DNA of 21,676 nt from a virus, in the IMG/VR virus record IMGVR_UViG_3300027816_000454, positions 1-21,676 of that record, one strand, 5' to 3'. The first letter of the stretch is position 1, and every line of letters starts with the position of its first letter. The position numbers and the translations under genes are program-made. The notes beneath the pieces are model-generated. The model did no database searches and was not told the origin of the DNA. It worked only from the letters and a program-made list of their open reading frames with translations. Shown here piece by piece: positions 865-21,676 of the stretch.

Positions 865-2517
865 ATGGCAAAACTAACACTGAACACTATTGGGAGTAGA
901 TATGGGTCTATTGATGCGCTGAATGATAATTCAGACCTCATCGAAGCCGCATTTGAAAACACTCTCAGCCGAGATGGTACTGGCCCAAATAACATGCTGG
1001 CCAACCTAGACATGGATGACAATTCAATTTTGAATGTGGATCAATTCTATGCAAGTAAACTTTACCTTAATGGTGAAGTAGTAGTTCTTTCAGATTTAGC
1101 AATACTAAATAGGGTGAGTGTTAAAGACTTTGATGCTGTGGGTGATGGGGTAGCAGACGACACATTTGCAATTCAAGCCGCCGTTGATGCATGTTTTACA
1201 AGTGGTAAAACTGTGTATGTGGATGCAGGGACATACGCCGTAACCAGTATTAAGATTTATCCAAACACCATTCTTCAGTTTGATGCTAATGCAACATTTA
1301 AGCAAACAGCAAACGGGTTTGCCATTCGCACATCAACCAGCCCCTCTGTAACTGTCCCAACCACTTCTGTTCTTTATGCAAAGATTTTCAATGCACGAAT
1401 CAACATGAACAACTGCACTGGTGCAGGGATATTTTTAGAAGGTGCTCAATCATGTGTTGTTGACAATGCGATTATTACCAACGTAGGTAGCGGAACATTT
1501 ACGTACAACGATGGCGTAACTAACAACGCAAACTACCGCACATCAGCAATTATGATTAAGGGCATCACTGGTGTGGCTGGCCCTTACTACAACCAGATCA
1601 ACCATTGCCGAGCTAATGGAGGCGGTAGCTCAAACACTAACAGCGGTATTTGGCTCGGCACAACCATTGGTAGTACAGACAATCAACGAGCTAACCTAAA
1701 CCAAGTTAACCACTGCGTTTTTTCTTCGTTTGGTGAAGGCATCTCAATGTGGATAGGTAGCGACAATAGATTTATCCAACCAGAAGTTTCTAGCTGTGGA
1801 ACAGGCATTGTTGTTGGAAATCCAACCTTGTACACTTTGAATTCTAACGGAAATAGTTTTCACCAAGTTTATGCAGAAGCATGTACTTTAGGGATGAATC
1901 TAACGACCAGAAGTTTAGACTCCACTGTTTTTGGTTTTGCTTCGTTGTCTAGCACTACAACTGGTCTTGTAGACAGTGGTGAACGCACTTACGTTGCTGA
2001 ATTAAGGGCCACCTCTCAAATTGCAAATACACCACGGTCTTATCCGGGAGGGTTTATTCTTCCAAACCCCGGAACAGCAACTGCTGGAACATTAGTAAGC
2101 GAGTTGCTAGGATATTACGAAACTGGAACTTTTACCCCAATATTAGCAGATGACCAATCAGCGGGTAATGTTGCAACCATTGGTACTGCCAGTGGCTTGT
2201 ACACAAGAATTGGCAACCGAGTATTTGTGACCATCTCTCTTACAAACATAACCACCACAGGTATGACTGCTGGTAATCAAACATTTATTCGGGGACTACC
2301 TTGGAATGTAAATTCTACCACTGACCTTCGTTCGGCTGGTGCTGTTTCATTTGCGTTAATTACAACAGCCACTGGTAGCATTACTACTCGTGCAATTGCT
2401 GGAACTGATTACATCAGTCTATTTGAGCAAACAACCACAGGACAGGCAACACTTTTAGTTTCAAAGTACACCAGTGGCAGCGCAGACTTGTACATTGAAC
2501 TTTCTTACCAAGTGTAA
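865..2517 (+). CDS. Tailspike with pectate-lyase-type beta-helix
   Basis: This 550-aa protein is the probable receptor-binding tailspike, possibly a polysaccharide depolymerase. Residues 1-80 form a short N-terminal region (MAKLTLNTIGSRYGSIDALN...) of a kind I recall from many podovirus tail proteins, where it anchors the spike to the tail. Residues 86-100 (VKDFDAVGDGVADDT) are the classic entry motif of the pectate-lyase superfamily, followed by N-, G- and S-rich repeating strands typical of a right-handed beta-helix. From about residue 410, the sequence YYETGTFTPIL starts a beta-rich C-terminal domain of the type that trimerises or caps spikes. The start is supported by AGGA six bases upstream. 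No catalytic residues can be assigned by eye, so enzymatic activity is inference. GC content and codon choice look higher than in the lysis genes downstream. Confidence 0.85.
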   Translation: MAKLTLNTIGSRYGSIDALNDNSDLIEAAFENTLSRDGTGPNNMLANLDMDDNSILNVDQFYASKLYLNGEVVVLSDLAILNRVSVKDFDAVGDGVADDTFAIQAAVDACFTSGKTVYVDAGTYAVTSIKIYPNTILQFDANATFKQTANGFAIRTSTSPSVTVPTTSVLYAKIFNARINMNNCTGAGIFLEGAQSCVVDNAIITNVGSGTFTYNDGVTNNANYRTSAIMIKGITGVAGPYYNQINHCRANGGGSSNTNSGIWLGTTIGSTDNQRANLNQVNHCVFSSFGEGISMWIGSDNRFIQPEVSSCGTGIVVGNPTLYTLNSNGNSFHQVYAEACTLGMNLTTRSLDSTVFGFASLSSTTTGLVDSGERTYVAELRATSQIANTPRSYPGGFILPNPGTATAGTLVSELLGYYETGTFTPILADDQSAGNVATIGTASGLYTRIGNRVFVTISLTNITTTGMTAGNQTFIRGLPWNVNSTTDLRSAGAVSFALITTATGSITTRAIAGTDYISLFEQTTTGQATLLVSKYTSGSADLYIELSYQV

Positions 2518-2532
2518 TTACGAAAGCAGTAC

Positions 2533-2703
2533 ATGATAAAAATTGATTTTACTATTAATGGGTTTACAGATGCTTTGCATTTAGCTGACGATCACGGCTT
2601 GACTGATGTTGAAATTGAAGCCATGAAGCAAGCTAGATATGACAAGTGGGATGCTTTTGTCAAGAATCCCCCCATTGTAGTTGACGAGTCTGTTGAGGAG
2701 TAA
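2533..2703 (+). CDS. Small protein following the tailspike (56 aa)
   Basis: The reading frame encodes 56 aa, MIKIDFTINGFTDALHLADD then a charged segment (TDVEIEAMKQARYDKWDAFV) and an acidic end (ESVEE). It begins 15 bases after the spike stop and ends 2 bases before the next start, so it is part of the receptor-binding transcript. Its middle resembles small proteins often seen after phage tail fibre genes, some of which are fibre assembly helpers, but I do not recognise a family. The ribosome site is weak (GAAAG), suggesting translational coupling. No transmembrane segment is present. Confidence 0.65.
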   Translation: MIKIDFTINGFTDALHLADDHGLTDVEIEAMKQARYDKWDAFVKNPPIVVDESVEE

Positions 2704-2705
2704 TT

Positions 2706-4223
2706 ATGGCAAACAGATATTGGGTTGGTGGAACGGGGACATGGAATACTTCATCTACAACTAACTGGTCAGCATCTTCTGGCGGAGCTAGTGGGGCATC
2801 CGTTCCCACTGCTGCTGATTCTGTATTTTTTGACCAAGCTAGTACGTATACAGTTACACTAACTGGAGCATTAACTTGCTTAGATATTACAGTGTCCGCA
2901 GGTACAGTAACATTTTCTGGAAGTGGAACACCTACTATTAGTGGTTCTATGTCTTTAGTTGCAGCAACTGTTTGGAATGCTACAGGTTTAATTACATTTA
3001 ATGCTACAACAACTGGCAACACAATCACTACTAATGGCGTTAGTCTTTCAGCATCTATTACCTTTAACGGTGTAGGTGGTAGTTGGCAACTTGGAAGTGC
3101 ACTAACTACTGGTGCTACCCGTGTAACCACACTAACCGCTGGCACATTAGATTTGGCAAGCTATACGTTAACTAGTGGTTTGTTTACTTCTTCCAATACT
3201 AACACTAGGGTAATGGCTTTTGGTACTGGTAAGATGGTTATAACGGGCTTAAACGCATCGGTTTGGACAACATCCATATCGACAGGTTTGACCATGACCG
3301 GAACAAGGACGGTTGAATTCACCGGGGTTGGCACAGCCGGACAAACTCGCACTATAACCGGAGGGTCTACTACCACTGACGGAACTGCTGCAAATGCAGT
3401 TAATATGTATTTTAAAGCTGGTGTGGATATTATTTCACTTGGTACTGGAAACCGTGTGTACGGAACACTGGATTTCACTGGGTTTTCTGGTTCAACAATT
3501 GCTAACATTGCGCCGCAAATTTATGGTGATTTAGTGCTTTCTACGGGTATGACTGTTACTAGCGGCACTAACATATGGACTTTTGTTGCAACCACATCAC
3601 AAACTATTACCACTAACGGAAAAACTATTGACAACCCAATTAGGTTCAATGGTATTGGCGGCACTTGGGCAATGCAAGATGCACTGACGCTTGGTTCAAC
3701 TCGCAACTTGACAATGACTAACGGCACGTTGCAACTCAAATCTGGCACAACAAATACAGTCGGAGCACTTCTCACCGCAGGTACAAACCAAAAGTTTCTT
3801 CAATCCACAACGCCGGGAACGCAAGCTACTTTATCCGACTCAAGCGATACAAACAGTGTCAACTATTTGACCATCCGAGACATTAACGCTACAGGCGGTG
3901 CAATATTTGAAGCTTATGTTACTAATAATAACGTAAATGCTGGCAATAATACAGGTTGGGATTTTTATCCAGTTACAAATTCTATTTATGATAGTTTACA
4001 GTTACGTGGTTACACAGGAACAGTAACTGATATGTTGTTACAATATTATAAAGCAAATGGTGCTACTAGTAATAGTTTACAAGATGCAGAGTCTCAGTTT
4101 TTAATTATTAAAGGTTATACTTTAGGTAGTAATACCGATAAGTGGTATGCTTATTTACGTAGTTTAAGTTTTACTGGAACTGTTACTGACATGTTATTTG
4201 ACTATTGGAAAGACCCTGTATAA
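2706..4223 (+). CDS. Beta-rich fibre-like protein with twin C-terminal motifs
   Basis: This is a 505-aa protein rich in T, S, G, N and V with few charges, as expected for a repetitive beta-structure exposed on the virion. The N-terminus MANRYWVGGTGTWN is familiar from phage structural proteins. A repeat unit appears twice: near residues 100-155 (TITTNGVSLSASITFNGVGG...) and near 296-350 (TITTNGKTIDNPIRFNGIGG...). The C-terminus holds two copies of another motif, LQLRGYTGTVTDMLLQYYK near residues 429-447 and LRSLSFTGTVTDMLFDYWK near 484-502. Strong GAGGAG lies five bases before the ATG. It probably works with the spike in host binding. Base usage changes along the gene: a GC-richer patch near 3240-3380 and an AT-richer end after about 3960. 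Function is inferred from composition and position. Confidence 0.75.
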   Translation: MANRYWVGGTGTWNTSSTTNWSASSGGASGASVPTAADSVFFDQASTYTVTLTGALTCLDITVSAGTVTFSGSGTPTISGSMSLVAATVWNATGLITFNATTTGNTITTNGVSLSASITFNGVGGSWQLGSALTTGATRVTTLTAGTLDLASYTLTSGLFTSSNTNTRVMAFGTGKMVITGLNASVWTTSISTGLTMTGTRTVEFTGVGTAGQTRTITGGSTTTDGTAANAVNMYFKAGVDIISLGTGNRVYGTLDFTGFSGSTIANIAPQIYGDLVLSTGMTVTSGTNIWTFVATTSQTITTNGKTIDNPIRFNGIGGTWAMQDALTLGSTRNLTMTNGTLQLKSGTTNTVGALLTAGTNQKFLQSTTPGTQATLSDSSDTNSVNYLTIRDINATGGAIFEAYVTNNNVNAGNNTGWDFYPVTNSIYDSLQLRGYTGTVTDMLLQYYKANGATSNSLQDAESQFLIIKGYTLGSNTDKWYAYLRSLSFTGTVTDMLFDYWKDPV

Positions 4224-4438
4224 TGTCTGAAATAAGCCACAAAGAAATTTATGAGCGACTTATTGCTGTTGAAAACAAAGTTGATACAGTTGCACAAAAT
4301 ACTAAAGATGTAGTAAACGCTTTTCATGCAGCACAAGGGGCATTTGTTGTTTTAGAATGGATTTCTAAAATAGCTAAACCTTTATTATTTATTGTTGGTC
4401 TTTCTACTGTTTGTGTAACGTGGTGGAATAACAGATGA
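4223..4438 (+). CDS. Small membrane protein, holin-like
   Basis: The protein has 71 aa. An N-terminal amphipathic segment (EIYERLIAVENKVDTVAQNT, residues 8-27) looks like a short coiled coil, and one hydrophobic segment spans about residues 41-66, ending in WWNNR. The start at 4223 overlaps the previous stop (TAATG); an ATG 18 bases upstream in the same frame is less likely because it lies inside the fibre gene without need. This layout matches small phage membrane proteins often annotated as holins. As it lies three genes upstream of the endolysin beside a better holin candidate, its role could be holin, antiholin or structural. Confidence 0.7.
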   Translation: MSEISHKEIYERLIAVENKVDTVAQNTKDVVNAFHAAQGAFVVLEWISKIAKPLLFIVGLSTVCVTWWNNR

Positions 4439-4890
4439 TTGCTGAACTTGCTGCTGCTAATGCAGCTTTTCAAGTTATTAAAACTGCATTAAACAACGGT
4501 AAAGAACTATCAGCTATTGGTGGTAAAGTTTTTGATTATTTTGATAATAAAGCAAAAATACAAGAAAAAGCTACTAAGAAAACAAATAAAAATGGTGATC
4601 GTTCGGATATGGAAGAATTTATGGCTCTTGAGCAGCTTAATGCCCAAGAGACTGAGTTACGTGAACGTATGATATATGCAGGTCGCCCCGGTCTTTGGGA
4701 AGATTGGATAAAGTTTCAAGCACAAGCTGCTAGCCGTAGACGTAGAAATAAAGAAATTGCTGCACGAAATGCACTAATTCGCAAACAAAAAATAAGTGAT
4801 TTGATTGACGTTATAGTTCTATCTGTAGCATTTATTATTTTGGCTATACTAATATTGTATGGTATTTATATTTACGTTGTATATTTTTAA
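4435..4890 (+). CDS. Tail-anchored membrane protein of the lysis region
   Basis: The protein has 151 aa: an alanine-rich N-terminus (MIAELAAANAAFQVIKTALN), a charged central stretch with the recognisable phrase MIYAGRPGLWEDWIKFQ (residues 79-95), an arginine/lysine-rich helix (100-118), and a single C-terminal transmembrane segment (about 122-151) ending in aromatic residues. Similar proteins occur beside lysis and tail genes in aquatic phages, from memory, without known function. The Lys/Arg belt just before the membrane segment favours a cytoplasmic N-terminus. It overlaps the upstream gene by ATGA. It may be a lysis regulator or a spanin-like factor, but no lipobox or classic Rz pattern is visible. 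Confidence 0.65.
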   Translation: MIAELAAANAAFQVIKTALNNGKELSAIGGKVFDYFDNKAKIQEKATKKTNKNGDRSDMEEFMALEQLNAQETELRERMIYAGRPGLWEDWIKFQAQAASRRRRNKEIAARNALIRKQKISDLIDVIVLSVAFIILAILILYGIYIYVVYF

Positions 4891-4902: not shown

Positions 4903-5313
4903 ATGTTTCCATTAGCTGCAATATTAGATGTTGGTACTAAACTTATAGATAAACTTATTCCTGATCCGCAAGCTAAAGCACAAGCACAACTTGATTTAGC
5001 TAAAATGGCACAGGATGGTGAGTTAGCTAGATTAACTAACGACACTAAACTATATGAGATAGAACAAACTGCTGTATCAAATAGGTGGCAAGCTGACATG
5101 GGGTCAGATTCTTGGTTGTCTAAAAACATTCGACCAATGGCCCTTATTGCAATTTTTGTAGCATACTTTGTATTTACAATGATGAGTGCTTATGGATATA
5201 ACGCACAAGAATCATACGTACAGTTACTAGGTCAATGGGGACAAATTATTTTCTTAGCTTATTTTGGCGGTAGAACTGTTGAAAAATTAGCAGATATGCG
5301 GAGTAATAAATGA
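4903..5313 (+). CDS. Holin candidate, GTA 3TM-type
   Basis: This 136-aa protein resembles the three-transmembrane holin family first described in gene transfer agents. The N-terminus FPLAAILDVGTKLIDKLIPD is followed by an Ala/Gln-rich helical segment (PQAKAQAQLDLAKMAQDGEL), then NRWQADMGSDSWLSKNIRP, which marks the approach to the membrane. Two clear hydrophobic segments follow at about residues 79-97 and 107-123, with the N-terminal amphipathic helix as the possible third. It is directly upstream of the endolysin and overlaps it by ATGA, the expected holin-endolysin pair. AGGAAGAG lies before the ATG. Family assignment is from motif memory; holin activity is inference. Confidence 0.75.
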   Translation: MFPLAAILDVGTKLIDKLIPDPQAKAQAQLDLAKMAQDGELARLTNDTKLYEIEQTAVSNRWQADMGSDSWLSKNIRPMALIAIFVAYFVFTMMSAYGYNAQESYVQLLGQWGQIIFLAYFGGRTVEKLADMRSNK

Positions 5314-5765
5314 AACTATCCAATAACTTTACACTTGAAGAATTAATTAAATCAGAGACAGCAATACGCCGTGGCATTAATAATACTCCTTCCTCTAGTG
5401 TCGTTGAAAATTTACAACAACTGGTTACTAACGTGCTGCAACCCATACGGGATAAGTTTGGCCCCATTACTGTAACTAGTGGTTATCGTTCAGCACAGTT
5501 AAATGTAGCTATAGGTGGTAGTGCTACTAGTGACCATGTATTAGGCATGGCAGCAGACATTGAAGTTCTTGGATTAGACAACAAAGTTTTAGCGCAATAT
5601 GTCCAAAATAATATTAAATTTACGCAATTAATATTAGAATTTTACACTGAGGGTGATCCTCACAGTGGTTGGGTACATATTAGTTATGATAAAGATGATT
5701 TAAAACAAGAAGTATTAACCGCCGTTAAACGTAACGGTAAAACAGTTTATTTAAAAGGAATCTAA
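5310..5765 (+). CDS. Endolysin, M15-family zinc peptidase
   Basis: This 151-aa protein is a probable peptidoglycan-cleaving peptidase (D-Ala-D-Ala carboxypeptidase or L-Ala-D-Glu endopeptidase type) that degrades the cell wall at lysis. The zinc signature is visible: SDHVLGMAAD gives H76 and D83, WVHIS gives H123, and E110 in LILE fits the catalytic acid. The upstream VTSGYRS at 55-61 is the conserved arginine-bearing block of the family. The length is typical of a single-domain M15 enzyme, with no separate cell-wall-binding domain and no signal peptide, so it needs a holin to reach its substrate. It overlaps the holin gene by four bases. Confidence 0.88.
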   Translation: MKLSNNFTLEELIKSETAIRRGINNTPSSSVVENLQQLVTNVLQPIRDKFGPITVTSGYRSAQLNVAIGGSATSDHVLGMAADIEVLGLDNKVLAQYVQNNIKFTQLILEFYTEGDPHSGWVHISYDKDDLKQEVLTAVKRNGKTVYLKGI

Positions 5766-6197: not shown

Positions 6198-6631
6198 TAT
6201 TACAACTCTTTAAAGAGTTTGCTCGTCCTGATGTTAAGTTTAAACCTGTATATACATTACAAGAATGGAAAGATGTATTTCTTGATTGTCGTGATCCTTC
6301 AGAATACCAACCTGCACAACTATTGCTTGGGGATTGGGAACACTGGCTTGAAGTACGTAACCATGCTTTAATTAAACCACATGTAGATAAGTGGCAAGCC
6401 GAACTAGAAGTAAAGTTGCGTTCAGAAGCAATTAATCAAATGAAGAGTCATGCTAAACAACCGGGAGGCACTGCTGCTGCTAAGTGGTTGGCTGATAAAG
6501 GATATGCCTCAGAAGCCGTTAAAAAGCCCGTAGGAAGGCCTAAAAAGGAAGAGGTAGAACTACCCCCTATCCCTAGTCGTATTGCAGGTGATATGGCTCG
6601 TTTAGGAATTGTAATTGGAGGTAAACGATAA
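6152..6631 (+). CDS. Probable terminase small subunit
   Basis: The product has 159 aa, predicted mostly helical, with a D/E/W-rich middle (LLLGDWEHWLEVRNHALIKP). Near the end, AAKWLADKGYA (109-119) is followed by the AT-hook-like GRPKK (128-132) and an acidic-proline linker. The phrase AKWLADKG followed by GRPKKEE is typical of phage small terminase subunits, which recognise the packaging site and hand DNA to the large subunit. Position in the cluster just before the large terminase fits, although five small genes intervene. T7 places gene 18 (small) before 19 (large) with 18.5 between. The start is set by the AGGAG at 6141. Assignment is from motif and order, not a confirmed homology. Confidence 0.65.
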   Translation: MVDRTKFLDGSGKRVILQLFKEFARPDVKFKPVYTLQEWKDVFLDCRDPSEYQPAQLLLGDWEHWLEVRNHALIKPHVDKWQAELEVKLRSEAINQMKSHAKQPGGTAAAKWLADKGYASEAVKKPVGRPKKEEVELPPIPSRIAGDMARLGIVIGGKR

Positions 6632-6900
6632 TGCCATTTATGACCAACGGTAAACGTGATTATAAAAAACAATACGAAAAGTATGATGGTAAAGAGGATG
6701 TAAAAAAAGATCGGGCTAAACGTAATGGTGCACGCCGTATGTTGGAGCGTGAAGGTAAGGTTAGCAAAGGTGACGGTAAAGATGTAGACCACAAAAAGCC
6801 ACTAAGTAAAGGTGGCAGTGCTAGTCGTGGTAATTTACGTGTTACTAGTAAGAGTGCTAATCGTAGTTTTGCCCGTAAGAAGAATGGAACAATGAAATGA
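6631..6900 (+). CDS. HNH-like small basic protein
   Basis: This 89-aa, highly basic protein has an N-terminal Lys/Arg/Asp-rich helix and the C-terminal block DVDHKKPLSKGGSASRGNLR (51-70), then SANRSF. DH at 53-54, GG at 61-62 and N68-L69 match the beta-beta-alpha core of HNH nucleases. The usual third histidine appears as N77, and no zinc-binding cysteine pairs are present, so activity is uncertain. HNH proteins beside terminases are known packaging partners in some tailed phages. The start overlaps the upstream stop (TAATG); a second in-frame ATG at 6640 is possible. Confidence 0.65.
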   Translation: MPFMTNGKRDYKKQYEKYDGKEDVKKDRAKRNGARRMLEREGKVSKGDGKDVDHKKPLSKGGSASRGNLRVTSKSANRSFARKKNGTMK

Positions 6901-12097: not shown

Positions 12098-13069
12098 ATG
12101 GCTGGTGTTGATTACGCAAAGGTTAATGAAAACCTCGTTCGTGCAGAACTTTGGTCTGCTGAACTAAAAGACGTTCTACAAGAACAACTCATGGGCACAC
12201 GCTACGTGCGTATGCTAAATGGTTTCCCTGATGGCAACCAATTCACAATTCCTTCTGTTGGTGAACTACCAATGCGGGAAACTGCTGAACTAACCCCCGT
12301 TGTGTATGACGCAATGGATACTGGTGAGTTCAACTTCACTATTGATCGTTACGTTGAATCTGCTACCTATATCACTGATAAGGCTAAGCAAGACAGCTAT
12401 TACGCTCAACAATTAATTGGTATGTTTCCTACCAAGATGCGCCGAGCTTTAGATGAGAACTTAGAAACTTCTGTTTTCTCTTTAGCTAACACACAAACTG
12501 CTAACAACGCCAACTCAATTAACGGTGCTTCACACCGCTTCATTGCTTCTGGTAGTTCTAACACTGTGTTGTCTTTAGATGACTTTGCTAAAGCTAAGTT
12601 TGCTTTAGATAAAGCACAAGCTGGTGGTAGCCGTGTTGCTATTATTGATCCATCACAAGAGTATGTGTTTAACCAACTAGTTGGTGCACAAGCTTTCATT
12701 AACAACCCACAATTCGGTGGTATTGTTAACGGTGGTTTCGTGAACGAAGTTACTGGTATGCGTTTCGTTAAAAACATTTTCGGCTTTGACGTTTATGTTT
12801 CTAACTTCCTAGCTACTCCTACTGACACAGCTATTAACGCTGATGGTCGTGGTAGTGTTAACACCCCTGCATCCCCTGTGACTAACGTGTTTATGTCTGT
12901 TGGTGGCGATCTAACTCCTTTCGTTGGTGCTTATCGTCAAATGCCTCGTGTTGAATACGAGCGTAACAAAGACCTACGCCGTGACGAGTATGTGATGAAC
13001 GCACGTTTTGGACTCAAGCTATATCGCCCTGAGTGCTTAGTGTCAGTCATCTCTAAGTCTACCATCTAA
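12098..13069 (+). CDS. Major capsid protein
   Basis: This 323-aa protein is the HK97-fold shell protein. An N-terminal arm (AKVNENLVRAELWSAELKDV) is followed by the ENLVRAELWSAEL and ITDKAKQDSYYAQQ regions seen in podovirus capsid proteins, a long spine-like helix (residues about 100-125), and the C-terminal end KDLRRDEYVMNARFGLKLYR, typical of this group's A-domain tail. AAGGAG six bases before the ATG is the strongest ribosome site in this part, as expected for the most abundant virion protein. A clear intrinsic terminator follows. I find no frameshift site for an extended minor form such as T7 gp10B. Confidence 0.92.
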   Translation: MAGVDYAKVNENLVRAELWSAELKDVLQEQLMGTRYVRMLNGFPDGNQFTIPSVGELPMRETAELTPVVYDAMDTGEFNFTIDRYVESATYITDKAKQDSYYAQQLIGMFPTKMRRALDENLETSVFSLANTQTANNANSINGASHRFIASGSSNTVLSLDDFAKAKFALDKAQAGGSRVAIIDPSQEYVFNQLVGAQAFINNPQFGGIVNGGFVNEVTGMRFVKNIFGFDVYVSNFLATPTDTAINADGRGSVNTPASPVTNVFMSVGGDLTPFVGAYRQMPRVEYERNKDLRRDEYVMNARFGLKLYRPECLVSVISKSTI

Positions 13070-14237: not shown

Positions 14238-14942
14238 ATGGCTAAACTTTCTTTACTAGACATGACGCAGAACATTCTTTCTGCATTAGATTCAGACCCC
14301 GTAAGTAGTATAGATGAAACAGTAGAAGCTGTACAAGTTGCAGAACTTGTTAAAGAGGCTTACTTTGAATTACTAAGCCAGCGTGACTGGCCTTTTCTGT
14401 TTCAACTTGCACCATTACAAGCATTAGGTGATACTAATAACCCTACTAAAATGAAAATTCCAGATACATGGAATAAAGTTAAATGGGTCAAATATAATAA
14501 AAAAGAAGTAACGTGGGTAGACCCTCAAACATTTAACGACATTATTACTAACCGTGTTGCACAAAGTGGTGTTATTAATGCTAATGGATATGTCATTAAC
14601 CAAGACCCTCAATACTGGACTAGTTATGACGATCAGTTTTTAATTTTTGATGGTTATAATAGTAGTGTAGATAATACGTTACAGGCTAATAAAAGTAGTG
14701 CCTATGGCACACAACAAGCTAGTTGGACACACATGGATAATTTTGTTCCAGCTATTCCCGAAAAGTTTTTTCCTACATTGTTAGCTGAAGCAAAGAGTCA
14801 AGCATTCGTTAACTTAAAGCAACAAAGTAATGCTAGAGAAGAACGCAAAGCAACTAGAGGACGAATGGCAATGCGTAACGATAGTTGGAAAAATGAAAAC
14901 GGTGAAGTTAAATACAACACACGAGTTAATTACGGGAGATAA
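14238..14942 (+). CDS. Tail tubular protein A (T7 gp11-like adaptor)
   Basis: This 234-aa protein fits the gp11-type gatekeeper that sits under the portal. It starts with helical residues (LLDMTQNILSALDSDPVSSI), followed by AELVKEAYFELLSQRDWPFL, the best known signature of this family, and a C-terminal stretch with LLAEAKSQAFVNLKQQSN ahead of arginine-rich residues. Length and place (after capsid and head-surface genes, before tail tubular B) agree with T7-like phages. AAGGAAG precedes the ATG. Three tiny genes separate it from tubular B. Confidence 0.9.
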   Translation: MAKLSLLDMTQNILSALDSDPVSSIDETVEAVQVAELVKEAYFELLSQRDWPFLFQLAPLQALGDTNNPTKMKIPDTWNKVKWVKYNKKEVTWVDPQTFNDIITNRVAQSGVINANGYVINQDPQYWTSYDDQFLIFDGYNSSVDNTLQANKSSAYGTQQASWTHMDNFVPAIPEKFFPTLLAEAKSQAFVNLKQQSNAREERKATRGRMAMRNDSWKNENGEVKYNTRVNYGR

Positions 14943-15360: not shown

Positions 15361-15486
15361 ATGCAACGTCAACAACGTCTTGCTAAATTAGTAGAAGTTG
15401 GTGAAAAAGCTAAGCGTGAATTAGGTATTGAAGAACAACCAAAAAAAGATGACGTAAATCGTCATAAGTGGAAAGGTGTAATGTAA
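15361..15486 (+). CDS. Tiny protein ending in NRHKWKGVM (41 aa)
   Basis: The 41-aa frame MQRQQRLAKLVEVGEKAKRE continues LGIEEQPKKDDVNRHKWKGVM. A TTG start at 15331 would give 51 aa (MKKSLRKEDAMQ...) and has GAGG eight bases before it, inside the previous gene; the ATG at 15361 has a weak ribosome site. The choice is open. Its end DVNRHKWKGVM repeats the C-terminal motif of the gene at 14944. It ends in TAATG, coupled to tubular B. Confidence 0.55.
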   Translation: MQRQQRLAKLVEVGEKAKRELGIEEQPKKDDVNRHKWKGVM

Positions 15487-17708
15487 TGTCAGCACAAGCT
15501 TCAGTAAAGGATTCGTTTACGTTTGTAGGTGGTCTAGTCACTGAAGGCGGCTATTTTCTTACGCCTGAAAACAGCTACAAAGAAGGTGTTAACGTAATCC
15601 CACAAGTTGACGGTACTATTGAACGCCGTAATGGTTTGGATTATGAAACTGGATATAACTTACATGCTGCTGCCATTACTGCTGACAGTAAAGATTTATG
15701 GGCCTTTACCACAGGTACATGGTCTACTGTAGCTGGTAGTGGCAATAGGGATTTTATTGTAACGCAGACAGGTCGTTATTTAAACTTCTATAATGCTGCT
15801 ACTGGTAGTGTTAGTGCGTCACGCAATACAGTGTTTCGTATTGATTTAGAAACCTACAAAGTTCCCGGTAACCCCAACACTGTTGGTTCAGGAATTTGTA
15901 GTTTTGCTCCTACTTATGGGCGACTTATTGTTACTAGTGCAGACACGTTACCATTATTAGTAAGTTATGCACCAGTTGAAGGTAATGAAAATACATGGGG
16001 AACTTTTACAGTTAAAACACTAGATTTAGAAATTCGTGATTTTAAAGGTGTTGCACTTATTGATAATAGTGGTAATAGTGTTCCAATTAATGCTGAATAC
16101 GATGATGCAGGATGGGCAGCATTAGGTGTAGATGTTACTGATGTTAAATATAACTTGTATAACCAAGGTTGGACAGATACACAAATTAATTCTTATAAAG
16201 GTGCTAACTCAAACAAATACCCAGCTAATACTAAAAGTTGGATTTATGGTAAAGATAGTAATGATGATTTCAGCCCCGGATTCTTAAACAAACAAGATTT
16301 TGGTAATTCTCCTGCTCCTAAAGGACACTTTATTATTGATCCTTTTGAAGACATTGTATATCGTCCTAAAGTATGTGCTTTTTTTGCAGGGCGTACATGG
16401 TATGCAGGTATGCCAACATCTGACTTATTAGGAACTGTATTTTTTAGTCAAGTATTAGATAATATTGATAAAGTAGGTAATTGCTATCAAACTAACGATC
16501 CAACATCTGAAGTTATTAGTGATTTAGAAGATGATGATGGTGGTACTATTGAAATTCCTGAAGCTGGTGAAATTGTCTCATTACAACCACTAGGTCGTGG
16601 TATTATGGTATTTGCCACTAACGGCGTGTGGTTTATTTCTGGTGTAGACCAAGGTTTTAAAGCATCTAACTACGCAGTTGATAGGGTATCGGCTGTAGGT
16701 TGTTTAGCAGGTAAAAGTGTTGTAGCTGTAGAAGACACAGTGCTTTATTGGAGCACTAGTGGTATTTATGTTGTTAGTGCAACTAATTCTGTAGAATATA
16801 CAGCTACTAATATTAGTGAAAAAAACATTAAAACTTTTTATCAAGACATTCCAATTTTAGGTAAATTGTATGCTGAAGGCTCGTATAATGCTACAAATAA
16901 AACTATTTATTGGTTATATTCAAACTCAAGTAATACATCTACTAGTAGTGGTAGATTCAATAAAAACACTATTCTTGCCTTTGATGCCCGTTTAAATAGT
17001 TGGTATTGGTTTTCCATTAATACCTCTATTGGTGTTATTCCTGTATCTATTGAGGTTACTAAAGAAACAACTACTATTACTAACGAGTACGAAGTTATTG
17101 CTGGTGTAGATGATGTAATAGCTAATACAGATAATGTAATTGCTAACGTAGCTAACGTGTCTGGTACAAATAAAGCATATAAAATACTAATATTACATCC
17201 AGTTAACAGTAACAATTATTCTGTAACGTTTGCTGATTTTGATAATACACGAGATAGTTCTACTAAGTTTAAAGACTGGTATTCCTTCAACAGCGTTGGT
17301 GTTGAGCAACCTGCCTATTTTATTACTGGATATAACATGGGTGGTAATGGCCCTGCTAGGATTAAATCGGGGCAATATCTAACTGTCTTTATGAAGCGCA
17401 CTGAAACAACATTTGATAGTAATACTATTCCACTCAATCAAAGTAGTTGTAAAATGCAAAGTCTTTGGGATTTTACTGACAATAATTACCCCGGTAAGTG
17501 GGCTGCTGAAGTAGAAGTATATCGTCAACTACGTCCTTACTTTGCTAATCCTAGTACTACATTTGATGATGGTTATCCACTAGTTATTTCAAAAAATAAA
17601 TTACGTGGTAGAGGTAAAGCAGTGCAGTTTAAGTTTACTGCACAAGCTGGTAAAGATATGAAGATTGTAGGTTGGACAGGAACATTTGTGGGGAATACTA
17701 ATGTTTGA
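15486..17708 (+). CDS. Tail tubular protein B (T7 gp12-like nozzle)
   Basis: This 740-aa protein fits the gp12-type nozzle of the short tail. The N-terminal SVKDSFTFVGGLVTEGGYFL and ENSYKEGVNVIPQVDGTIERRNG are the standard opening of the family. The rest is beta-propeller-like with repeated strand and turn patterns (GIMVFATNGVWFISG, DTVLYWSTSGIYVVSAT). The length is close to the T7 protein (about 790 aa). The start at 15486 is coupled to the previous stop by TAATG; an in-frame ATG at 15468 lies in the previous gene. Confidence 0.93.
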   Translation: MSAQASVKDSFTFVGGLVTEGGYFLTPENSYKEGVNVIPQVDGTIERRNGLDYETGYNLHAAAITADSKDLWAFTTGTWSTVAGSGNRDFIVTQTGRYLNFYNAATGSVSASRNTVFRIDLETYKVPGNPNTVGSGICSFAPTYGRLIVTSADTLPLLVSYAPVEGNENTWGTFTVKTLDLEIRDFKGVALIDNSGNSVPINAEYDDAGWAALGVDVTDVKYNLYNQGWTDTQINSYKGANSNKYPANTKSWIYGKDSNDDFSPGFLNKQDFGNSPAPKGHFIIDPFEDIVYRPKVCAFFAGRTWYAGMPTSDLLGTVFFSQVLDNIDKVGNCYQTNDPTSEVISDLEDDDGGTIEIPEAGEIVSLQPLGRGIMVFATNGVWFISGVDQGFKASNYAVDRVSAVGCLAGKSVVAVEDTVLYWSTSGIYVVSATNSVEYTATNISEKNIKTFYQDIPILGKLYAEGSYNATNKTIYWLYSNSSNTSTSSGRFNKNTILAFDARLNSWYWFSINTSIGVIPVSIEVTKETTTITNEYEVIAGVDDVIANTDNVIANVANVSGTNKAYKILILHPVNSNNYSVTFADFDNTRDSSTKFKDWYSFNSVGVEQPAYFITGYNMGGNGPARIKSGQYLTVFMKRTETTFDSNTIPLNQSSCKMQSLWDFTDNNYPGKWAAEVEVYRQLRPYFANPSTTFDDGYPLVISKNKLRGRGKAVQFKFTAQAGKDMKIVGWTGTFVGNTNV

Positions 17709-17991
17709 TGTATTTTGGGAAGATGAAGATGGGACATTAAAGTTTCAACATCACATGGGGCGTGTTTACGCACATGCCGTTACTAATAAGTGGAATAAAC
17801 GTGTGTACATGAAATGTCTAGACGTATGGCATGTTGCAAAAGAAGAACTAAGAGAAGCAGGGCATAACGAAGTGTTTGTACTTATTCCTGCTGACAATCA
17901 AACGTTAATTAGGTTTGAAACAATTTTTGGCTTTAAACCTGTTAAACAAATTAACAATGCTCTTTTAATGGTTTGTTCAACGGAGAAATAA
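17701..17991 (+). CDS. Small protein with GNAT-like C-terminus (T7 gp13 position)
   Basis: The product has 96 aa. The stretch VWHVAKEELREAGHNEVFVL followed by PADNQTLIRFETIFGFKPVK resembles the end of GNAT acetyltransferases, where a residue pair N-x-x-x-I-R-F/Y-x-x-x-x-G-F closes the fold. The acetyl-CoA P-loop (Q/R-x-x-G-x-G/A) is not visible, so it would be a degenerate or partial fold. In T7-like phages a small gene of similar size (gp13) sits here. The start at 17701 overlaps the tubular B stop by eight bases; an upstream TTG at 17686 is possible but less likely. Confidence 0.7.
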   Translation: MFDVFWEDEDGTLKFQHHMGRVYAHAVTNKWNKRVYMKCLDVWHVAKEELREAGHNEVFVLIPADNQTLIRFETIFGFKPVKQINNALLMVCSTEK

Positions 17992-18447: not shown

Positions 18448-21400
18448 ATGATGTTATACGAAGAAGATGGTGCAGCACAACCTGAACAAAGCTTATACAC
18501 TGCTGAAGACACTGTAGCTGCTCCTGACACTAGTGTGGGAAACTATTCAGTTGTTAAAGGCATTGTAGCAACGGCTACTGGAAATACAGATATTTCAGAT
18601 GAGATTAATTTTGACCAGTTTGTAGATGGTAATTGGCGTACCACTGTACCTGAACAGAATAACATTGACCGTGATATTGCGGTTAAAGCTGCTTCTGAAG
18701 GTAACGTAAATATTGTACAACAAACACTAGATAGTGTTGCTGCACGTAATCGCATGTACGGTGAAGTTAGTATTAATAACGTTAATGATGTTCGTGCTAA
18801 ATTAAAAGAACTTACAACACAAGCTGTAGAAACAACTGCTGTACGTAATCCTTCTGTTTTATTTAATAACACTCCTGCTGAAATTAACGAGTCTACTACT
18901 CGCATGTCTAAGCGTTTAAGTGCTGCTGCAACACTAGACAAAGCTATACAAGATGGTAAAAGTTGGTCTACTATTGGCTTAGGATTTTTATATGAGTTTA
19001 CTCCAATGGCTGCTGAACAAGGTGCAGCTATTGATAGAGTAGCAGTTAAATATGGCGTCCCTGCGGATGCCATTAGTCGTACTTCTGGTAGATCACAAAC
19101 TAAAAGTTATTTACAAGCTGCATTTAATGCACAACCTGAAGAGTTAAAAGGTGAGTGGTTATCTGGTTTGTATAACGATTTAAAAGATAGTTGGTTGATT
19201 ACTGATTGGCAAGCTGCGTTACTAATACAAGAGGTTGCTACTGGTGAAGAACAAACGTGGGATGGTTTATCAGATTGGTTAGATAGACTAGGTGTAGTAG
19301 GTGCTGCTCTAGCAGGTGGTGGTGCTGTTATTAAATCAGCAAAACTATTTAAAAATGCTAGTGCATTACAAAGTGTAGAACGATCACTAACTGCTGCTGG
19401 TGGTAAGAATGCTATTATGGCTGCCGAAGCTGCTAAAATTGCGTCACAAGTGGCTAACAAACAACGCTTACAAGCTGTAGGTGTAGTTGCTGGTGAACTA
19501 ACAGGTATTAGTACAGCCATTGACTTAGGTAAACTAGTCAGCATGAATGCTGCTAAAATACTACCTGATGCCATTACAACGGCTGCTGATGATTTACAAA
19601 AAACTATTCGTGCACCTGTTGAGAAACTAATTGCCGAACTACAAGATGTAGTTGCGTCTAAAGGTGTTCGTGCATCTGAAGCTGCTGCTGAACTTACAGA
19701 CTTACAGCGCATCTATTCTAAAACAAACAACCCTAACGTACACTCAGTAGACCCATTCACTCTATCTGAGAATGGTTTAGTTATTACTGGTAAAGTATTT
19801 TATAAACCAGATACAGCGTCTAGTTTCTTAACTAAAGAGGCGGCTGAGTCCTACATTAAAGTTGCCGATCCAACAGGGTCTATTGGCATGAAGGTTGTAC
19901 CTGACACTACTAACACAGGCTTTTTGGTTGAAGAGAGTGTTAAGAAAGATTTACAACTACGTAAATCTGCACTAGAAGCATTGGTATTAGAAGAACTAAA
20001 TAAGAGTAAACCTAAGCGTGGTAAGAAAGCACCTACTGTAGAAACACCCCCAGTAGAACGTGCTCCAGCACCTAAAGCTCTAACAGATAGTAAGCCTCGT
20101 TACAAAACATCACAACTTACATTTGAAGACGATGTAGATAAAGCTGCCTATCAAATTGGTAGTAAAACTGCTACTAGTAAGAGTGATAAAGAAATTAAGA
20201 CTTGGTTACAGAATACAACTGGTTGGGATGATGCCACCATTGCTGGTCATGCACAAACTGTACGTGACTACATCAAGGCTAACGAAGGCATGGTAGATGA
20301 TGCAGGTAACATTGTGGTTGCTAGTCAAGTACCAGTAGGTCGCCCTTCTTCAATTGCACAAGTTGATGCTAATATTTTATTTGCTAACTTACAAGTTGCC
20401 TCCGGTACTACCACTGTTGGCAACATCACTATGTCTGCTGGTGTTAAGAAGGCATTTGTTGTAGAGTTTGTTAGCAAGCTAGGTAAAGCACTAGGCATGG
20501 ACAACCGTAAACTTGTAGTTATGGACTACGAAGATATGGTTAAGAGTAAAGACCCAACAGTACGTGCACGTGTAACAGACATAAAACAAAACCACGGTAG
20601 TGCTGGTGCTATACATTATGACTACGGTAATGGTCAATCGTTAATCGTAATGCGCCGAGGTACAAATAAAAATCCTTTATCACTACGTCAATACATGGAA
20701 AACTTTGCCCATGAATATGGTCACGCTTTTGAAGCAGAGTTTTCTACAAAGTATTTTGGCATTATTAATAGTAGTTTTAACAAGTGGTTGCGTGCTAAAG
20801 GCATTAAGTTTACAGGTGAGGGGGACACTAAGTCTGTTCTAGATGTGTTCCCCCCTGAAGCATTATTAGAATATCGTTCCATTACCAACGCAGAAGACAT
20901 TGCTGTCAACTGGATTGATAAGTGGGCTGGTGGTGACTACGGTAAGTATCAGGCATACGAATCTCAGATTCACAAGTGGGCATCTAGCTACAGTGAATTC
21001 TTTGCTGAGAACTTTGCTAAATGGGCCTTCAGTGATGAAATACCTACCACGGTATTAGGACAGGCATTTAAGCGCCTTGTAGACGGTTTTAAGCTAATTG
21101 CTAGCGATGTTATGGATAGGCTAGCTAAGCTAGGTATCGTAGCTGATGTTGGTAAAGTAGACAAGAACATTGCCGCTATGCTCAATACCCATGTTAAGCA
21201 ACTACAAGAACAAGCTGTTCAAGTAAATGCCAACATGACAATGATTGCATCTGAAAGCAAAAAGATTAAACCAACACTTGCCTCTCTACAAAAAGAGTTG
21301 GACGAAGTGATGGATGAACTCAACGCAATTGAAGATGCTGAAAAAGGATTGAAGACAGGGTGGCTAGTTGAGCAACCTATTAACCGTACGCTAGATTATT

Positions 21401-21676
21401 CCATTGTTGGTAAATATTCTGATGATGATATTAATAGCGCAGCACGATTTGCTATGGGCGATTGGGCATTTGCTACATCCAGTGAACTATATTCACAACG
21501 TCTTGTAGGTATTAATCAAGGTAGCCGTTATCAGAAGTTGTTGACTAACTTTGTACGACCATCCATTGAGAAGCTAAGTAAAGCAGATATGGTGGCACTG
21601 AATGATGCATTAGTCATCGGTGATAAAGAGGGTAAACTATTCTCAGCACATGAACTAGCTGGTCAAGGTCTGTCAT
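18448..21676 (+). CDS. Giant internal virion protein with HEXXH metallopeptidase, incomplete
   Basis: The frame is open from 18448 to the right edge, at least 1,076 codons, and has no stop in the window. AAGG stands six bases upstream; an adjacent ATG at 18451 is a possible start. The N-terminus (LYEEDGAAQPEQSLYTAEDT) and extended Ala/Ser-rich helical regions are like ejection proteins (T7 gp15/gp16 places). A hydrophobic GVVGAALAGGGAVIK stretch is near residue 285. HEYGH at 755-759 with SEFFAE (849-854) gives a zinc metallopeptidase core: two histidines, the catalytic glutamate and a downstream glutamate ligand as in gluzincins. A Lys/Pro-rich linker is near 525-560. No lytic transglycosylase motif is seen in the visible part. 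Confidence 0.85.
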   Translation, partial: MMLYEEDGAAQPEQSLYTAEDTVAAPDTSVGNYSVVKGIVATATGNTDISDEINFDQFVDGNWRTTVPEQNNIDRDIAVKAASEGNVNIVQQTLDSVAARNRMYGEVSINNVNDVRAKLKELTTQAVETTAVRNPSVLFNNTPAEINESTTRMSKRLSAAATLDKAIQDGKSWSTIGLGFLYEFTPMAAEQGAAIDRVAVKYGVPADAISRTSGRSQTKSYLQAAFNAQPEELKGEWLSGLYNDLKDSWLITDWQAALLIQEVATGEEQTWDGLSDWLDRLGVVGAALAGGGAVIKSAKLFKNASALQSVERSLTAAGGKNAIMAAEAAKIASQVANKQRLQAVGVVAGELTGISTAIDLGKLVSMNAAKILPDAITTAADDLQKTIRAPVEKLIAELQDVVASKGVRASEAAAELTDLQRIYSKTNNPNVHSVDPFTLSENGLVITGKVFYKPDTASSFLTKEAAESYIKVADPTGSIGMKVVPDTTNTGFLVEESVKKDLQLRKSALEALVLEELNKSKPKRGKKAPTVETPPVERAPAPKALTDSKPRYKTSQLTFEDDVDKAAYQIGSKTATSKSDKEIKTWLQNTTGWDDATIAGHAQTVRDYIKANEGMVDDAGNIVVASQVPVGRPSSIAQVDANILFANLQVASGTTTVGNITMSAGVKKAFVVEFVSKLGKALGMDNRKLVVMDYEDMVKSKDPTVRARVTDIKQNHGSAGAIHYDYGNGQSLIVMRRGTNKNPLSLRQYMENFAHEYGHAFEAEFSTKYFGIINSSFNKWLRAKGIKFTGEGDTKSVLDVFPPEALLEYRSITNAEDIAVNWIDKWAGGDYGKYQAYESQIHKWASSYSEFFAENFAKWAFSDEIPTTVLGQAFKRLVDGFKLIASDVMDRLAKLGIVADVGKVDKNIAAMLNTHVKQLQEQAVQVNANMTMIASESKKIKPTLASLQKELDEVMDELNAIEDAEKGLKTGWLVEQPINRTLDYSIVGKYSDDDINSAARFAMGDWAFATSSELYSQRLVGINQGSRYQKLLTNFVRPSIEKLSKADMVALNDALVIGDKEGKLFSAHELAGQGLS

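Follow-up and report, generated by a model that had tools for sequence, protein, structure and literature searches.

What would a zinc-peptidase motif do inside a giant protein that a phage appears to send into its host? This question is raised by the window analysed here, the whole of virus record IMGVR_UViG_3300027816_000454 (21,676 bases), in which an open reading frame (ORF) starts at position 18448 of the plus strand and continues for 1,076 codons with no stop before the window end. A first-pass annotation of this DNA had described an ejection-type protein with an embedded zinc metallopeptidase, which ran past the edge and might be much larger than 1,076 amino acids. Close relatives of the window protein are present on 11 viral contigs, and extension to the stop gives the larger size: the full-length, stop-terminated protein has 1,969 amino acids in L003 and L004, both 100% identical to window residues 1–1076. 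The homologue in L005 (91% identical) likewise has 1,969 amino acids, and that in L009 (69%) has 1,965. To judge from the sequences of this family, one ejection scaffold carries exchangeable zincins (metallopeptidase domains), including, in some distant relatives, one related to the zincin of the N4 virion RNA polymerase.

The putative zinc site is composed of HEYGH at residues 755–759 and SEFFAE at residues 849–854, and both motifs are found in the window translation where they had been placed before. A chance motif is ruled out, since 34 proteins covering the zincin slot (the family representatives at 95% identity; 64,235 amino acids) contain 35 HExxH, compared with 0.60 expected from composition. 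By itself, an HExxH means little: T7 gp16 (L133), which served as a control, contains one, HERLH at 559, taken as chance. Successive searches with wider alignments collected 34 loci, down to 35% identity, two of which are the window's own sequence. H755, E756, H759, E850 and E854 are invariant in 32/32 of the remaining loci, a conservation that was in part selected because motif patterns were used in the searches. The residues are thus kept among relatives, as is HExxH in the 45 scaffold-found loci described below, and the loss that would speak against an active site is absent. Outside the two motifs, His723 is His in 29 of 31 rows of the alignment, and position 762, three residues after the motif, is acidic in 30 of 31 (Glu 24, Asp 6, Ala 1). 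The predicted zinc ligands are His755, His759 and one of the SEFFAE glutamates; Glu756 would act as the general base in zincin catalysis.

An AlphaFold2 model of residues 640–925, calculated with a 31-sequence alignment, shows a confident zincin fold (predicted local distance difference test, pLDDT, 86.1; predicted template modelling score, pTM, 0.89). A first model from nine close sequences was poor (pLDDT 44.9) and was discarded. The layout is a helix, three strands, the HEYGH-bearing helix and, later, the SEFFAE-bearing helix (H29–42, E49–54, E82–86, E91–96, H107–125 and H209–221 in model numbering). Structure prediction, which the first-pass annotation had proposed as a check, therefore gives a zincin core and not a fold foreign to metallopeptidases. 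The nearest folds in the PDB are the lethal-factor/PPEP (M34-type) metallopeptidases, with borderline scores: lethal factor (Z 8.2), Certhrax (7.6) and PPEP-3 (7.4). The lethal factor match covers chain residues 559–776, with a root-mean-square deviation of 4.5 for 169 aligned residues and an identity of ~14%. Among predicted viral proteins there are five fold matches at E ≤ 0.001, the first of which is 89% identical and the second annotated with a large polyvalent protein associated domain.

The carrier of this zincin is related to a known virion protein. The family phrog_12003 ('internal virion protein', Zobellviridae) matches residues 1025–1777 of the full L004 protein (1.3e-45), and a translated search with residues 1001–1969 returns 55 named phage records (best E 7e-28); ten of the 55 were fetched, and all ten are classed as Zobellviridae. 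These share the gene order tail protein, tail appendage, small proteins, giant protein and next large protein. The order of GNAT, gp14-like protein, giant protein and a protein of 600–900 amino acids also matches Zobellviridae, GNAT being represented in the window by a weak 101-residue ORF only; the Cobavirus paper places internal virion proteins B and D beside a GNAT acetyltransferase in related phages (PMC6775973). Gene order and the phrog_12003 match agree with the earlier placement of the protein where T7 has gp15 and gp16, and the family match, the zincin core of the model and the conserved site residues together uphold its description as an ejection-type protein with an embedded zinc metallopeptidase. 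The C-terminal half is homologous to the Zobellviridae internal virion protein (phrog_12003; ICP2 gp6, SIO1 gp26, VpV262 ORFU), whereas the ten fetched proteins are shorter (1,414–1,674 amino acids) and lack the HExxH of the 1,969-residue window type. From homology and gene order we infer that virions contain the giant protein and eject it along with the DNA, as is the case for T7 gp16 (PMC8954989) and N4 gp50 (PMC12633501).

The further suggestion of the first-pass annotation, a fusion of several ejection proteins, is not supported. The gp14-like protein, a 711–755-residue protein and a small SLT/lysozyme-like protein are encoded by separate genes around the giant gene, and family and PHROG profile searches find no transglycosylase or SLT domain in the 1,969-residue protein. 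The SLT transglycosylase has its own gene downstream in L004 (6.3e-15) and L005 (1.5e-5), so the giant protein is of the ejection type and not a fusion with a cell-wall enzyme; in T7, by contrast, the SLT domain lies within gp16. A profile comparison of the 711-residue protein with T7 gp15 gives nothing (1.3%), and no hydrophobic 19-residue segment above 1.4 occurs in the 1,969-residue protein.

To avoid selection by the motifs, the slot was surveyed with the scaffold only (residues 1340–1710). This search gives 56 loci, 11 of which are fragments that start after the slot, and HExxH is present in all 45 slot-covering loci, in 44 within the ORF and in L097 in an upstream ORF across an apparent frameshift. 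The giant gene of L097 is split by this frameshift after the zincin (2–1876 and 1828–4503), through either a sequencing error or a real split. The loci L106–L122, which were selected by no zincin motif, have HExxH in 17/17 (11 at 95% identity). The ten fetched Zobellviridae proteins have it in 0/10, and thus the scaffold core works without a zincin. These ten proteins, with the same scaffold and no motif, also speak against a role of the zincin as a maturation protease for other virion proteins such as scaffold or capsid. No other protease was recognized among the head-gene products scanned for families, which comprise some of the window ORFs, and this is in keeping with such a role; however, zincin presence tracks the ejection protein and not the head genes, and we consider a maturation protease highly improbable.

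The zincins in this slot are not all of one kind. The window-group profile aligns to the distant proteins mainly at ~370–500 and 950–1940, and the middle is unaligned in several of them. In profile comparisons, the window group joins L108, L110 and L111 (99.0%, E 4.9e-18), whereas it reaches at most 3% with L106/L107, L109/L112 and L114–L122. The N4 polymerase zincin is matched by L109/L112 (97%) and by the L114 group (95%), and the latter is matched to the zincin of phages KiKu and Axy21 (99%). For the window group against the first L101 zincin, a value of 99.8% arose from overlapping segments; it is an artefact and was not used. With the slot alone, phrog_2206 (N4 polymerase) is matched by L109 (8.9e-9), L114 (6.1e-6) and L119 (4.7e-4). 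The L109 and L114 matches are absent in whole-protein scans, a result against the N4 link, and L112 and L106 give no match with either the slot or the whole protein; the link of the L109 and L114 slots is kept because the profile comparison agrees. HExxH in all slot-covering loci, together with two poorly joined zincin groups in the same slot, therefore points to exchangeable zincins on one scaffold.

The scaffold tree is consistent with such exchange. All zincin-bearing proteins are split from the ten zincin-free Zobellviridae by one branch (support 100), and the first zincin group is paraphyletic to the second, so that at least one zincin replacement took place. The best tree has two, and the count is given as a minimum of one because the tree is quick, with supports from the Shimodaira–Hasegawa-like approximate likelihood-ratio test only, and the program warned of long branches meeting. 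L101, on a contig shared with L069, has two HExxH domains at ORF residues 587 and 810, the first with HEFAH followed by EELMADGLAF and the second with HEYAH followed by EEFFAENFAKWAF. An ADP-ribosyltransferase-like segment is found just before the zincin in L110, L111 and L113 (~475–620) and in L106 (~530–660); its ART-PolyVal matches, 0.0054 in L111 and 0.12 in L110, do not reach the cut-off, and that of L106 was recognized by eye only. Regarding named phages, the slot regions of L110 and L106 have no match, that of L112 has nine weakly matching records and that of L114 has 42 matching phage records. The window part of the giant protein has no match among them, and the zincin region matches only four Gordonia records (E 2 to 8). 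Among bacterial and archaeal genome contigs, 450 pattern matches for the zincin and 64 for the scaffold include 0 relatives.

Zincins in injected phage proteins are already known. A 2017 study (Iyer et al., PMC5512222) described zincin-like metallopeptidase (MPTase) domains of the 'polyvalent proteins' that phages inject, their likeness to lethal factor, and a core that combines three strands with an N-terminal helix and two further helices and carries HExxH and a distant Glu. The window protein resembles these proteins in being very large and probably injected, and its model has the same core. One clade of that study has a conserved His ending strand 2 and an Asp three residues after HEXXH, to which His723 and the acidic residue at 762 of the window group are similar, although position 762 is mostly Glu (24/31) here. 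Polyvalent proteins carry two or more unrelated enzymatic domains, whereas only the zincin is recognized in the window type, the weak ART-PolyVal matches being confined to L111 and L110. The carriers also differ, since the window zincin resides in a Zobellviridae-type internal virion protein, unlike the polyvalent proteins of PMC5512222, and Zobellviridae phages are not named in the searched text of that paper (SIO1, Vibrio phage: 0). Among the open-access papers listed in literature searches, none describes a metallopeptidase within an internal virion protein of Zobellviridae. As far as these searches go, what is new is that a Zobellviridae-type ejection protein holds zincins as a cargo that can be exchanged and that the ten relatives examined lack.

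In the polyvalent proteins, the leading idea is self-processing (PMC5512222), which also cites the processing of phage P1 DdrB before packaging. The zincin of the window family would accordingly cleave the polypeptide to which it belongs, either ahead of packaging or once ejected, and free the N-terminal part and neighbouring cargo from the scaffold. The variable segment 501–654 in front of the zincin, its location between two protein parts and the candidate ADP-ribosyltransferase adjoining it in distant relatives are in keeping with this. According to PMC5512222, however, packaging of the N4 virion RNA polymerase, another protein with such a domain, takes place without cleavage. No conserved cleavage site was found, although no search was aimed at one, and the window type has no recognized second enzyme needing release; we rate self-processing as rather unlikely.

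The C1 domain of the N4 virion RNA polymerase (PMC12633501) is likewise a HExxH zincin in a giant ejected protein, and HExxH is present in 8/8 Schitoviridae checked. The window zincin group compares with these eight zincins weakly (probability 45%, E 2.2e-4). N4 differs in its C-terminal region, to which the scaffold of the window family has no homology; the scaffold profile also finds nothing in T7 gp16, T7 gp15 or the KiKu gp16-like protein (best probability 0.4% throughout), a comparison of low power for T7 and KiKu because those sides were single sequences. In the cultured T7-like phages KiKu (Pseudomonas putida; L123, 4657–9231) and Axy21 (Achromobacter; L124, 4837–8679), a HExxH domain of the second zincin group is located in a gp16-like internal virion protein, as HEITH at 512 of 1,525 residues and HELAH at 413 of 1,281 residues, respectively; these differ from the window protein in both the scaffold, with no detected homology, and the zincin group. 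N4 also offers a model for a structural or DNA-handling module that retains a zinc site with no protease activity in vivo, for example because packaging or the form of the ejected assembly depends on it: the zincin-containing region is reportedly needed for packaging of the N4 polymerase (PMC5512222), and a 2025 N4 preprint assigns no role to the C-terminal part (PMC12633501). In the window family, the residues predicted to bind the metal and to act as general base do not vary, and HExxH is kept even where the other zincin group has taken the place of the domain. Catalysis is therefore favoured over mere fold, and a purely structural module appears improbable.

Our overall reading, to which we give an even chance, is that the window derives from a Zobellviridae-related podovirus whose ejection scaffold carries an exchangeable zincin cargo that cuts host proteins early in infection. 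The ~1,000 C-terminal residues would be the ejection scaffold common to Zobellviridae and residues ~655–900 a zincin-type zinc peptidase, as cargo in the exchangeable slot. The 1,969-residue protein would be packaged in the head and leave it by way of the tail together with the first DNA. Its zincin, holding zinc on the two histidines and a SEFFAE glutamate, would cut host proteins in the periplasm or cytoplasm. Host proteins are favoured as substrate because the core works without the zincin in relatives, because HExxH persists through domain replacement, because scaffold residues 1451–1720 are better conserved than the zincin region in 10/10 comparisons and because the slot also houses other possible effectors. 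What the computations show is the sequence, its conservation, the predicted fold, the membership of the family and the replacement in the slot; the host substrate is the least certain part.

Several results weigh against this reading. The search patterns included one or the other motif, so that a locus found with one motif is a free test of the other motif alone. No Pfam peptidase model scores above its cut-off, the matches that fit the motif being Reprolysin_5 in 8/31 members and SprT-like in 7/31, both below it, and sequence searches of the PDB find nothing meaningful. Foldseek finds no match in the PDB at E ≤ 0.001, and the Z score of the second aligner is at most 8.2, which that tool rates as borderline. 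Its identity is lower than that of residues 1–370 in 6/9 comparisons only, and than that of residues 1721–1969 in 7/9. Finally, the place of the zincin between two protein parts suits self-cleavage too, the leading published idea (PMC5512222).

The features of the window are collected in Table 1.

Table 1. Positions of the giant gene, its segments and its neighbours in the window, with the evidence for each.
Feature	Position	Strand	Evidence
Tail protein (T7 gp11-like position)	14238..14942	+	phrog_7592 2.9e-59
Tail appendage (T7 gp12-like position)	15468..17708	+	phrog_8094 1.9e-142
Short ORF where Zobellviridae have GNAT acetyltransferase	17686..17991	+	phrog_4470 E 0.027, weak
T7 gp14-like internal virion protein, 150 residues	17993..18445	+	T7_gp14 E 0.0062 (does not reach Pfam cut-off); phrog_8168 1.3e-17
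Probable giant internal virion (ejection) protein, 5' 1,076 codons	18448..21676	+	C-terminal half against phrog_12003, 1.3e-45 (on L004)
N-terminal scaffold segment, residues 371–500	19558..19947	+	hmmsearch segments ~370–500 in L108, L110, L111, L114, L117, L119, L122
Variable segment preceding zincin, residues 501–654	19948..20409	+	L100 profile match omits ~560–640
Predicted zincin (metallopeptidase) domain, residues ~655–900	20410..21147	+	AlphaFold2 and fold searches; modelled part, residues 640–925 (20365–21222)
His723	20614..20616	+	Second core strand of model (model residues 82–86); His in 29/31 rows
HEYGH, residues 755–759, predicted zinc ligands and general base	20710..20724	+	H, E, H invariant 32/32; model helix 107–125
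SEFFAE, residues 849–854, third zinc ligand predicted among E850/E854	20992..21009	+	Both Glu invariant 32/32; model helix 209–221
C-terminal ejection scaffold start, ~residue 950 to 1969, mostly outside window	21295..21676	+	phrog_12003 match and relatives' profile alignment

Other observations concern the surrounding genes. The small cell-wall enzyme after the ejection genes differs among close relatives, as though it had been exchanged (L004:17909–18514 and L005:12468–13016; PHROGs 342 and 4067 match best). In L004, the major capsid gene (L004:3767–4255) encodes 162 amino acids only, compared with window 12098–13069, and the next ORF follows at a distance 116 bases less than in the window, possibly owing to an assembly error. 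In the window, 5310–5765 encodes a Peptidase M15-type endolysin (Peptidase_M15_3 2.8e-21, phrog_894 2.9e-44), and a small ORF at 6631–6900 has the look of an HNH-type endonuclease, judged by eye only.

Zincins in injected giant phage proteins may serve either self-processing or attack on the host. One scaffold family with relatives that have no zincin, one group, the other group or, in one case, two provides a natural comparison, which points to selection for protease activity at the slot. The question is testable in culturable phages too, such as N4 in Escherichia coli and P. putida phages such as KiKu. Tentatively, and with less confidence than in the overall reading, we suggest that the protein may resemble a loaded syringe, with a fixed C-terminal scaffold and a slot for cargo. 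Selection would drive the exchange of different zinc proteases in this slot, at times present as a pair or next to an ADP-ribosyltransferase-like domain, and a lethal-factor-like protease delivered with the first DNA would inactivate a host protein, which may be one used in defence. If the target is indeed a host defence protein, this feature would provide counter-defence delivered with the first DNA.

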